This document shows positions 152 through 31,444 of a DNA stretch of 64,000 nt, in pieces. Each line of letters begins with the position of its first letter. Position 1 is the stretch's first letter. The position numbers and the translations under genes were made by a program. Source of the stretch: Daejeonella oryzae DSM 19973 (GTDB lineage: Bacteria; Bacteroidota; Bacteroidia; Sphingobacteriales; Sphingobacteriaceae); contig NZ_AUHA01000003.1 in NCBI RefSeq assembly GCF_000422945.1, positions 124,001-188,000 on the forward strand, in the 5' to 3' direction. The notes under the pieces were generated by a model that saw only the letters and a program-made list of their open reading frames with translations, was not told where the DNA came from and did not search any database.

Positions 152-3100
152 CTATCCTAAATTATATCCTGCTTTTATTGCACTCTTTTCGCTGTAAAAA
201 ACAACCCGGTCTTCCAGATTTAAATTTTGTGCTTGCTCAGATCCGGCCGGATAAGCAATTTTAGAATTTCTGTCTCCAATTATCGCCGGCAAATTCACCC
301 GCATGGTGGTTGATCCGATGGTTATTTCCACCCTGAATCTTTTGCCCGCTTTAATTTCAATCCGCTTCTGATCTGAAAGTATGCTCGTATTCTCAGAGAA
401 ATATTGTCCATGCTCATCAATAGGTGTTTTTTCGCAATCTGTAGTGAATGATACTCTCAGTTCTCCATTATACATATTTTCAAAACTTCCGGTTACTGCT
501 TGCCCGTTTATTTTAACCAGTGGCGCAGGTGTTCTTACAGGTGAAATAACATTTCCATACTTATCGGTTGGAGTTAGGCTGAGAACAAAGGCATTTGGAT
601 ATTTCCAGAATAATATTGGTTTGCTTCGATTTGCATCCGGCCGAATCCCAATCACCACCTGAGTATGAAATACCCGGGAAAAAACCTGAGGATGATCCTG
701 ACAGCAATCAGGATACGGAAAGTCAATTAATCCTTCGAGATAAACACTTAGATGATATATTCCGGGATAAATGTTATTGCTGATTCTGGCCTGCAATGAA
801 CTGCCTGTTCCTCTCTGAAAAATTATTTCTTCGTCGCGGAGTTTAAATACACCGGGTTTTAGATTTTCGTAATCCGCTAAATAGCTTAATTCATTAAATG
901 GAGGCTGCAGCTCTTTATCATAATATTTTTCCCGTCTGTCCATTGGAATAGTTTCCCTGTCGGCGAAAAAATTCCCCGCAGAAAATAACGGAGCAATAAG
1001 TCTTGCAACTGATATTACTTCCTTGGTATTCAGTACTTCGGGGGTATTTAAATCTAAATGAATTACAATGTCATCTCCTGTAAATAATGTAGAATTGCGG
1101 ATGGTGAGTTTAGGTTTAAAAGTAGTTTTATGATAAATCTGAATAGAAACTGCACATGGATCATTTATGTTCTGAGTGCTTGGTGCCGCCAGACCTCCTG
1201 CTAATCGGTGATTTAGCTTACCAGGAATAATCCTGCTGACAGGCCTGTTATTTACCGGCTGATTATACCGACTGTATAAAGGTCCTTTTAGTGGAGGTGC
1301 GCTGATTGGCAGCAACAAATCCTGAATGTGGGGCATAATCATTACCTCATCATTTTGTCCGTGACGGTAATGAGCCATCAGCGTCCATTTCCCAGCCCAT
1401 TTTTCTGTAGGCGTACCATTGCGGTTAACAAATGCTGTAAAGCGGCCGTCTTTAAAAGTTTTTGTTAAAAAATACGGACAGTCAATGGCATGCTCATGTT
1501 CTGTTTTTTCTTTTTCATGATCATGTCCCTCGTGCTTAAGAGGTTGTTTGATCACATCATGATTTGTATGTTCATGTTCCTCATCCTTTTCTTCATGTAC
1601 ATGTTCATCCATTCCGGTATCGCAGCAACAACTGATTCCATCAGGACCCATCAGACAAAAATTCCAATTTTTGCTGCTAAAATCATAACCCTGCGCTACA
1701 ATCATAAAGGAATTGTCGGCGCTGGTTATATCAAAAGTAAAATGAAGGTGTTCTCCGGGGAACAAATCGAATATTGGATCGAGGGCAGGAGTATAGCCCA
1801 TAGAATTGGCCAAGGAATCTGTATAAAATTTGTCTATCACAGCCGCATTCTCTCCATGGAATACCTGGGTTGGAACTCCAGGGTCTGTTTTTCCTTTCAA
1901 AACGATGGATGCAAGCGTTGCGTAATCAACGCCGTTCCATCCTCCTCCAATTCCAAATCCCATCCCAAAAATAATGGTTTTATTGAGAGAACCATTTGGT
2001 ATTGTATTTAAAAGAGGGGCAGAGGTTTCTATGCCATCTGTGAGAATGGCCATATAACGTTGCTGGTTGCTGGGCTGATTAGAGAACGGTGGGCGTACAA
2101 GTGTTGTTTCCGTATCGGTAATTGCTCCCGCTATTGGTGTTCCCCCGGAAGGTAACTGGGCAGCGATATTAGCATCAAAAGTAGCTCTGCTAAAACTGGT
2201 TCCGTTTTTAATCAATCCGTATGGAGTTCCCGGACTGAAAATTTTAGTGAACTGATTTCCCGCAAGAGACCTGAAAGTTTCTACTCCTGCAGTAACATAC
2301 GCTTCGCGTGCGGTATAGGCCGTTTGACAGTCCTGTAAAAAAAAGGAGACACCCTGCTTTGCAGCCGTCCATTTGCTAATATTTGGTGCCATTCCTGTTA
2401 ATGGATCGGGAGTCATGCCAAGCATACTTCCTGTTTGATCCAGTGCAATACCAATAACGGGCTCTACATCATAAGCATATCCTAAAGCATGATGATTAAG
2501 CACTGAAGCAGAGGTAATCTGAGGTTCGGCCGTAAAATTGGGAAGGACTATATCTGCTAATGGCGCTGCCGGTGCATATCCGGGAAGTGCTCCAACCCAT
2601 GGCCATAAGGGATCGTTTAAATTGTGACCAACAGGTTCGCCAGCTGCAGGATAAAATGCAGCTCCCTGATGACCATCAATTTGCCACATGGCCCATAATC
2701 GATCTACATTGCAATGGTGGAGAAAAAAAATCGGATCATTGGGAGAGGTGCTGGGAACCATACTTCCTCCAACCCATCCATGAATAAAATTATGAAGAGG
2801 AGCTGTTTCAAGGGTTGACCTGAATTGTGCGGCAGGCTCATAATCCGTTTTAGATAATAAATTATTTACGTCGGTTTGCAGAGGCAGAGTTGGGAATGCA
2901 CCTAAATTTCTTCTTAATGTGGTTGAGCCGGTTGTAAGTGCTGGCCGAATTCTCCAGCCGGGTAATCCTGCCGGCCACCAGGGTGGTAACATCGCCGGAG
3001 CATTAAATGCGAAAAATCCGCTCATTACACTTCCTCCTCCAACACCTCCTGCTCCGCCATTTGGCCCCATAAAATTATTTTGAAACAGGATATTCTGAGT

Positions 3101-3430
3101 ACCTGTCTGATCTGTCCAGTCCCAGTAAGGAAGCATAATGCTGGGGTCGCCGGCAGCATTTTGTAAGGCCTGTTCGAATCTTAATATATAATACCGATGC
3201 CATGAACAAAAGCCTGCGTTTCCATGGCCCACATTTACAGGAGTGGCGCTTCCGGGAACGATCAGATTCACCACATAATTATGAATTGCTACAAACTGAT
3301 CATAAATATTTATTTGCTGCGCAGAGGGTGCCCCGGGGTTGGCAATTGTGTTTTTTAGAATGAGTACGGCTTCTAAAAAATTATTTCTTTCTGCCGTAGT
3401 AAGATACAGCGCATTCTTACGAATCTTCAT
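152..3430 (-). CDS. Tyrosinase / von Willebrand A / His-rich fusion protein
   Basis: A 1092-residue multidomain protein. Residues about 1-260 are a tyrosinase-type dicopper domain: CuA ligands His50, His69 and His78 (GHGNAGFCSWHRYYILRFEQ), a PYWDW motif near 101-105, and CuB ligands His213 and His217 (HNFIH) and His238/239 (DPIFFLHHCNVDRLW). Residues about 325-550 look like a VWA domain with a MIDAS motif DQTGS (331-335), Thr431 and Asp465 (LTDG). A CCC triplet (601-603) and a His/Glu/Asp-rich stretch (610-648, ten His) follow, then about 440 residues I do not recognise. No signal peptide is visible at the N terminus. Known tyrosinases oxidise phenols using oxygen; that activity, and a metal-holding role for the His-rich part, are inferred here. 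The start is fixed by a very strong ribosome-binding site just upstream. It seems to be transcribed alone. Confidence 0.85.
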   Translation of the reverse strand: MKIRKNALYLTTAERNNFLEAVLILKNTIANPGAPSAQQINIYDQFVAIHNYVVNLIVPGSATPVNVGHGNAGFCSWHRYYILRFEQALQNAAGDPSIMLPYWDWTDQTGTQNILFQNNFMGPNGGAGGVGGGSVMSGFFAFNAPAMLPPWWPAGLPGWRIRPALTTGSTTLRRNLGAFPTLPLQTDVNNLLSKTDYEPAAQFRSTLETAPLHNFIHGWVGGSMVPSTSPNDPIFFLHHCNVDRLWAMWQIDGHQGAAFYPAAGEPVGHNLNDPLWPWVGALPGYAPAAPLADIVLPNFTAEPQITSASVLNHHALGYAYDVEPVIGIALDQTGSMLGMTPDPLTGMAPNISKWTAAKQGVSFFLQDCQTAYTAREAYVTAGVETFRSLAGNQFTKIFSPGTPYGLIKNGTSFSRATFDANIAAQLPSGGTPIAGAITDTETTLVRPPFSNQPSNQQRYMAILTDGIETSAPLLNTIPNGSLNKTIIFGMGFGIGGGWNGVDYATLASIVLKGKTDPGVPTQVFHGENAAVIDKFYTDSLANSMGYTPALDPIFDLFPGEHLHFTFDITSADNSFMIVAQGYDFSSKNWNFCLMGPDGISCCCDTGMDEHVHEEKDEEHEHTNHDVIKQPLKHEGHDHEKEKTEHEHAIDCPYFLTKTFKDGRFTAFVNRNGTPTEKWAGKWTLMAHYRHGQNDEVMIMPHIQDLLLPISAPPLKGPLYSRYNQPVNNRPVSRIIPGKLNHRLAGGLAAPSTQNINDPCAVSIQIYHKTTFKPKLTIRNSTLFTGDDIVIHLDLNTPEVLNTKEVISVARLIAPLFSAGNFFADRETIPMDRREKYYDKELQPPFNELSYLADYENLKPGVFKLRDEEIIFQRGTGSSLQARISNNIYPGIYHLSVYLEGLIDFPYPDCCQDHPQVFSRVFHTQVVIGIRPDANRSKPILFWKYPNAFVLSLTPTDKYGNVISPVRTPAPLVKINGQAVTGSFENMYNGELRVSFTTDCEKTPIDEHGQYFSENTSILSDQKRIEIKAGKRFRVEITIGSTTMRVNLPAIIGDRNSKIAYPAGSEQAQNLNLEDRVVFYSEKSAIKAGYNLG

Positions 3431-3431
3431 T

Positions 3432-3443
3432 GATCACCTCCTT
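3432..3443 (-). promoter_or_regulatory. Full-length Shine-Dalgarno of the tyrosinase gene
   Basis: On the minus strand AAGGAGGTGATC lies directly before the ATG, with six bases between GGAGG and the start codon. It is complementary over 12 bases to the conserved 3' end of bacterial 16S rRNA (GATCACCTCCTT). Most genes in this window have no such sequence, as is usual in Bacteroidota, so this site is exceptional and firmly sets the start at 3430. Confidence 0.85.
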
Positions 3444-31033: not shown

Positions 31034-31444
31034 ATGAAGCGTTTAAAAAACCAATTAATGGCTTTGGGGATCATCCTGGTCATTACTCTTGGCTCTTCCG
31101 CATGGTGCTATGCACAAGATGTTGTAAAAATTATGCCTGCAATGCATAAATTATTGCTGGAAACGGAAGATGTTAAAGTTTATGAGGCAACGTATAAGCC
31201 GGGCGAAAAGGCCGCTATGCATTCTCATCCCAAGCATATTATTTACCTGCTTTCTGGCGGTAAAATGACCATGATCGGTACAGATGGAAAGCGGGAAGAA
31301 CTTGCTATGGAGGCAGGAGTTGTGAGGGAAAATCCGGCTGTTACTCATGCTACTGAGAATACAGGTGATACCGAAGTGAAAGTTTTGGTAATCGAGTTGA
31401 AAAATGGCATGGATCATAAAATGATGCCCAAAAAGCAAAATTGA
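31034..31444 (+). CDS. Secreted cupin-domain protein
   Basis: A 136-residue protein with a signal peptide (MALGIILVITLGSSAWCYAQ, cleavage after AQ). The mature part is a single cupin barrel: motif 1 PGEKAAMHSHPKHIIYLLSGG with the two His and Glu/Lys positions for metal binding (HSHPKH), and motif 2 NPAVTHATENTGDTE. The last residues are Lys and Met rich. The substrate is unknown. The Shine-Dalgarno before it indicates high or specially controlled translation. A terminator follows, so it is a single-gene transcript. Confidence 0.85.
   Translation: MKRLKNQLMALGIILVITLGSSAWCYAQDVVKIMPAMHKLLLETEDVKVYEATYKPGEKAAMHSHPKHIIYLLSGGKMTMIGTDGKREELAMEAGVVRENPAVTHATENTGDTEVKVLVIELKNGMDHKMMPKKQN

Follow-up and report, generated by a model that had tools for sequence, protein, structure and literature searches.

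The window analysed here, a stretch of 64,000 nucleotides from Daejeonella oryzae DSM 19973 (contig NZ_AUHA01000003.1, positions 124,001 to 188,000), carries near its beginning a gene that joins a tyrosinase to a probable VWA domain, a beta-rich region with a His-rich loop and a long tail. The gene lies on the minus strand, as do all parts described below, and a single open reading frame (ORF) fills exactly 152..3430, starting with ATG and encoding 1092 amino acids with zero internal stops. An intact full-length relative with the same domain order and 51% identity was found in the betaproteobacterium Nitrosospira briensis Nsp8, which rules out a chance ORF.

Inspection of the upstream sequence revealed the Shine-Dalgarno sequence AAGGAGGTGATCA at 3431..3443, directly 5' of the ATG. 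This ribosome site is unusual for the window: among 28 hand-picked genes a loose Shine-Dalgarno sequence or better was present in just three, and AAGGAGGT preceded the start in only two, the tyrosinase-VWA gene and a gene at 31034. The latter is a small cupin gene (PF07883, 31034-31444). The Nitrosospira protein can likewise begin with its tyrosinase domain, where a GAGAGGA precedes the possible start; its frame is open slightly further upstream, including a TTG. The start codon of the 1092-aa protein is well supported, and the absence of a signal peptide, stated in the initial annotation, is backed by both the strong AAGGAGGTGATCA and the start of the Nitrosospira protein. The codon use of the gene is not distinct from that of 25 other window genes, and its G+C content of 42.7% is the second highest among 26.

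Residues 1-321 (2468..3430) form the tyrosinase domain. Tyrosinase was the single Pfam family matched in the whole chain (PF00264, residues 42-250, E 3.2e-43, 149 bits against a cut-off of 22.6). The copper ligands H50, H69 and H78, and H213, H217 and H239, lie opposite hemocyanin His in the PDB alignments shown, and all six are invariant, together with E208 and N214, in a seven-row tyrosinase alignment, in support of the complete copper site proposed initially. Solved relatives include Bacillus megaterium and Streptomyces-type tyrosinases, so named by their entry codes (the table itself gives 'Tyrosinase'), whose alignments begin at residue 1-3 and extend to roughly 278-283 (E 6e-42 to 3e-37), as well as multi-domain hemocyanins. 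In our reading E208 may take the water-keeper position and N214 the activity-controller position. An Asn follows the first CuB His in four of five tabulated bacterial tyrosinases and a Gly in the fifth (PMC10526336).

The fusion point is near residue 321. The last residues are LGYAYE in the stand-alone tyrosinase at locus L022 and LGYDYEL in that at L024, and the D. oryzae protein reads LGYAYD at 316-321 and continues into the VWA domain. By eye, the N-termini of stand-alone tyrosinases are lipoprotein- or secretion-like, and the fused proteins are without such N-termini. Nearest in the set compared were the tyrosinase domains of loci L021-L024, at 37-41% identity. A tree was calculated for which 14 domains were intended (the fused pair, L002-L008 and L021-L025); L003, L005 and L025 were left out, and the boundaries used for the domains of L006-L008 and L023 are approximate. 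In the resulting 11 rows the two fused tyrosinase domains are sisters (98/97) and group with L021-L024 at 100/100, apart from the paralogs of the same D. oryzae genome, L002 and L004.

That genome also holds three tandem, secreted-looking tyrosinases with N-terminal repeats (G000:C2:602025-608298, corresponding to L050:6026-12299). They adjoin HEAT-like genes, recognised by eye, and a SCO1/SenC-domain protein (PF02630, E 4.4e-12) that is a possible copper-delivery partner.

Residues 322-552 (1775..2467) probably form a divergent VWA domain, as the initial annotation had proposed for the same chain; the evidence is moderate and comprises a match to VWA_2 below the Pfam cut-off, a conserved metal ion-dependent adhesion site (MIDAS) and a profile match. 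A MIDAS motif consists of D-x-S/T-x-S, T and D in this order. The MIDAS-like residues D331, T333 and S335 (within DQTGS), T431 and D465 follow in VWA order, and the Nitrosospira relative has all of them unchanged. A profile of three relatives matched a Pfam-confirmed BatA-type VWA protein (L057) with a whole-sequence E of 6.8e-9 among 545 frames; the alignment gave 24 bits from TDG onward, and the start of the MIDAS was aligned at 4 bits, which is not significant alone. Since L057 had been fetched earlier by a related profile (E 1.4e-4 for one of 396 genomes), the significance of this match is partly selected. In the PDB no match was obtained for the VWA domain alone or for residues 290-1092, nor did the VWA-tail profile hit any solved chain.

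The two intact proteins are 63% identical over residues 1-321 and 63% over 322-552, followed by 58% over 553-600, 21% over 601-651, 40% over 652-708, 41% over 709-930 and 29% over 931-1092. Seven Cys positions are common to both (240, 368, 592, 602, 759, 909 and 910). A third relative was detected in an Acidobacteriota genome (G1379, L059:9012-10900), with E 8e-76 over the VWA domain. There the VWA frame is still open, with D-x-T-x-S and TDG still visible, and the tyrosinase part is scattered over several frames with stops; no match was found from about 514 to 696, or after residue 766 of the D. oryzae protein (781 of the Nitrosospira protein). Judged by these features, the gene is a decayed copy.

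The distribution of the architecture was investigated in genome sets that overlap in part. A pattern scan with six exact peptides over 84,980 species genomes, which misses relatives without those peptides, returned seven loci, one of them full length (N. briensis Nsp8). A tail profile covering residues 290-1092 matched two of 395 genomes in the phylum of the window's genome, namely its own and one judged chance, and one of 20 in its genus, again its own. Around Nitrosospira it matched one of 300 genomes in the order and one of 369 in the class, both times the Nitrosospira genome itself. None of the five genomes holding the tyrosinase loci L022-L026 was matched, and in the phylum of the Terriglobia genome of L025 the four matches among 396 genomes comprised one true relative, which is the decayed Acidobacteriota copy, one general VWA protein, one sunset-like tail and one match judged chance. 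When the search was run with the entire protein, 11 of 201 genomes of the family gave a match, beyond the tyrosinase domain only the D. oryzae genome itself. Two matches, G342 (E 4e-4, an 83-aa frame) and L055 (E 9e-5, a receptor-like frame), were dismissed as chance similarities. Plasmid, phage and viral collections yielded nothing related to residues 290-1092, and PHROGs and PADLOC gave no match. A common architecture is rejected on the very few tail-profile matches in these sets; the domain order had been suspected to be uncommon, and the search for it indeed found one true copy, that of D. oryzae, among the 395 genomes of its phylum. No description of a tyrosinase-VWA chain was found in the open-licence literature, judged by title and start of abstract. 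As far as these comparisons of sequences reach, the architecture is real and rare, and it is known from three distant bacterial groups, among which the gene has probably been exchanged.

Behind the VWA domain, predicted strands of low confidence point to a probable beta-sandwich at residues 553-708 (1307..1774), which is broken by a Cys/His-rich loop at residues 601-651 (1478..1630). The CCC triplet (601-603) and the ten His (within 610-647) reported earlier are both present, and ten His in 39 residues were reached by none of 2000 shuffles of the protein. However, the idea that this stretch loads copper is not upheld as a general mechanism: with 23 gap columns and 21% identity, against 63% each for the tyrosinase and VWA domains, it is the least conserved part of the chain, and copper loading by it is therefore unlikely to be general. 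The Nitrosospira protein has only a short CADT...HSH stretch at this place and keeps the rest of the chain; C602, H619 and H621 are aligned with its Cys and His, in a gap-rich stretch. No match to the loop region was found in the decayed Acidobacteriota copy. A His-rich loop as shared mechanism is ruled out, because the stretch is not conserved between the two intact proteins. The most fitting view of the loop is that of an ornament specific to one lineage, which may bind metal in D. oryzae and its kin. Short runs rich in His (HQGHGDHDHH) or Met (MEDMKMDGM) also occur in the C-terminal regions of ordinary tyrosinases of the same family (L009, L014 and L016), and metal-binding-looking loops may therefore recur there.

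Residues 709-1048 (287..1306), in which C759, C909, C910 and H922 are conserved, are unrecognised and probably beta-rich according to a low-confidence prediction. No Pfam match better than E 0.1 was obtained past residue ~466, in line with the long unrecognised part described before. The last 44 residues, 1049-1092 (155..286), resemble a Cys-less relative of the Ada/sunset mini-domain. They gave 13.6 bits (E 0.054) with the NCBIfam sunset model (NF051437), under its 27-bit cut-off, and no match with PF02805; the chain contains no Cys after residue 999, so the zinc-binding Cys of Ada/sunset are absent. The A2 profile matched the tail of a protein at L056 (E 1.4e-4 for one genome); that protein in turn gave E 7e-4 with PF02805 and E 0.013 with sunset, neither reaching the cut-off.

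The genomic site was compared among 19 genus-mates. In all 13 that have both ypdA and gmhB these genes lie side by side, with 40-568 bases between coding ends, versus 3440 in the window; the remaining six have no clear ypdA and are uninformative on the site. None of the 19 carries the tail elsewhere in the genome. Gain by transfer is probable because the 13 genus-mates with both flanking genes lack the gene at this site, and the simplest reading is that it was probably gained horizontally and adapted afterwards. As to the host, the six best matches of the HtpG of the D. oryzae genome in a plasmid collection are all from Bacteroidales (54-56% identity, the next one 39%), in agreement with the Bacteroidota named in the initial annotation; GltB gives a less clear picture, with Pseudoalteromonas first (58%) and then Persicobacter (56 and 55%), of which Persicobacter, unlike Pseudoalteromonas, belongs to Bacteroidota. 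The surroundings of the Nitrosospira relative include a gene (L020:14654-17212) that combines a GMC oxidoreductase with a 3-keto-disaccharide hydrolase-like domain in one fusion protein (PF05199, PF06439); AlgX- and MBOAT-type genes separate it from the relative.

Several known systems resemble the chain in part. Like the Streptomyces MelC2-type tyrosinase (NF047834), it has no signal peptide and begins with the enzyme domain at residue 1, and its alignment with the family model covers residues 1-283 (161.6 bits, E 2.1e-47). Unlike it, the chain stays far below the 450-bit cut-off of that model, carries about 770 extra residues with a VWA domain and has no caddie match in its genome, a search that had no positive control. 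The caddie MelC1 (PF06236) was matched neither in the D. oryzae genome nor in 14 control genomes, and its absence is therefore weak evidence. That bacterial tyrosinases are normally loaded by a separate caddie, as first assumed, was too broad a statement, as PMC9454253 gives three bacterial architectures, with the caddie for Streptomyces. The zymogen tyrosinases of Verrucomicrobium spinosum and Burkholderia thailandensis likewise bear, C-terminal to the enzyme domain, an extension that may act in place of a caddie (PMC10526336, PMC9454253), but their extension is of ~17 kDa, whereas here it comprises about 770 amino acids with the VWA domain and several further regions. The short, lipoprotein-like or secreted tyrosinases L021-L024, which have the nearest tyrosinase domains in the compared set, differ by export-like N-termini, as seen by eye, and by stopping where the VWA domain begins. 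A similar order of parts, with an N-terminal metalloenzyme, VWA, beta-sandwich and Ig-like tail, is found in CLCA-type proteins; these are animal proteins with a zinc protease and serve as an analogy only. Two actinobacterial LodA-like quinoproteins combine an oxidase and a vWA domain in one chain, but belong to a quinocofactor amino-acid oxidase family and are not type-3 copper enzymes (PMC4417212).

Our preferred reading, which we put forward tentatively and as somewhat short of an even chance, is a horizontally acquired, cytosolic type-3 copper phenol oxidase in which the VWA domain and tail replace the caddie or a cleavable C-terminal domain. The protein would be synthesised in the cytosol and stay there, or be released by lysis; the VWA domain, binding a ligand in dependence on a divalent ion, and the beta-rich tail, acting as a cap, would hold the enzyme latent and steer copper filling and contacts. 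A cytosolic phenol oxidase under internal control is favoured because the protein lacks an export signal, has its copper site complete and carries an extension that is long and conserved, and the equal conservation of tyrosinase and VWA (63% each) speaks for it. In some bacterial tyrosinases C-terminal extensions replace the caddie (PMC9454253, PMC10526336). By analogy, a role in phenol oxidation comparable to that of the intracellular MelD2 of Streptomyces may be supposed; the non-secreted MelD2 lowers sensitivity to phenolics and its loss raises it (PMC2758597).

Other results weigh against this reading. MelD2 is an imperfect precedent, being described as without typical tyrosinase activity (PMC2758597). 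Nothing in the neighbouring genes (ypdA, transaldolase and a gmhB-like gene) suggests phenol metabolism. Since VWA domains frequently work outside the cytosol, export by a non-classical route is conceivable. As to the VWA assignment itself, VWA_2 (PF13519) was matched over nearly the whole model at E 0.0087 and 17.1 bits, under the 27-bit Pfam cut-off, and in the Acidobacteriota copy at 13.2 bits, likewise under it; the Nitrosospira segment alone had no Pfam match. Comparison by hhalign with three VWA proteins of the D. oryzae genome gave a probability of 0.1% jointly and at most 1.3% singly, the joint value staying within the range that 30 column shuffles reached (up to 0.55%); the profiles were thin, yet this outcome speaks against an easy VWA assignment. 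The structure models are of low confidence as well. With six alignment rows the full-length model reached a mean predicted local distance difference test (pLDDT) score of 37.4, too low for the fold or the active-site geometry, and with two rows that of residues 318-708 reached 31.6. In the full-length model only ten-residue blocks from 1051 onward reach a mean pLDDT of 65-84, and a Foldseek search with it found nothing at E <= 0.001, which is uninformative at such low model confidence.

Alternatively, the protein might be a surface or matrix cross-linker that is exported without a signal peptide, binds a partner through the VWA domain and oxidises tyrosines or phenols as glue. VWA domains have been tied to metal-dependent surface interactions (PMC4417212, on the two LodA-like oxidases), the second half of the chain is beta-rich in the low-confidence prediction, and the three other tyrosinases of the genome look secreted by eye. 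However, neither intact fused protein has a signal peptide, and since export-like N-termini are seen by eye in the short relatives L021-L024, it is the fused form that appears specifically without an export signal; we regard a cross-linker as rather unlikely.

A divalent ion and a ligand bound by the VWA domain might instead switch the chain between a latent and an active state. All five MIDAS residues are kept, the VWA domain is as conserved as the enzyme, and D-x-T-x-S and TDG persist even in the decayed copy, but the models given above are of too low confidence for a contact between tyrosinase and VWA to be read from them, and such a switch seems unlikely to us. To about the same degree we doubt the further proposal of a new class of mobile cytosolic copper oxidase with a dicopper site gated by the VWA domain and its MIDAS, a single chain in which phenol oxidation would be coupled to a divalent ion and its ligand and for which neither a caddie nor proteolytic activation would be needed.

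Somewhat less credible still is a self-loading enzyme in which the CCC triplet and the His-rich stretch of the chain would pass copper on internally to the tyrosinase site. The ten His that lie within 38 residues next to CCC, the alignment of C602, H619 and H621 with Cys and His of the relative and the His- or Met-rich stretches of L009, L014 and L016 argue for it; yet the stretch has the lowest conservation in the chain and only a short counterpart in Nitrosospira, His-rich sequences might also take up zinc or nickel, and the loop region is unmatched in the decayed copy, all of which leaves the idea weakened. A non-functional fusion or decaying gene would fit the very rare, sporadic occurrence and the broken Acidobacteriota copy, but is highly improbable in view of the intact frame, the strong ribosome site, a codon use like that of the neighbours and 51% identity with copper His and MIDAS residues preserved in another phylum.

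In tyrosinases, copper filling and latency vary by group and are achieved by a caddie, a C-terminal cap, or neither (PMC9454253, PMC10526336). A VWA domain in place of the caddie or cap would represent a further solution. The occurrence of this rare single gene across three phyla points to a unit that is complete in itself and able to function in foreign hosts.

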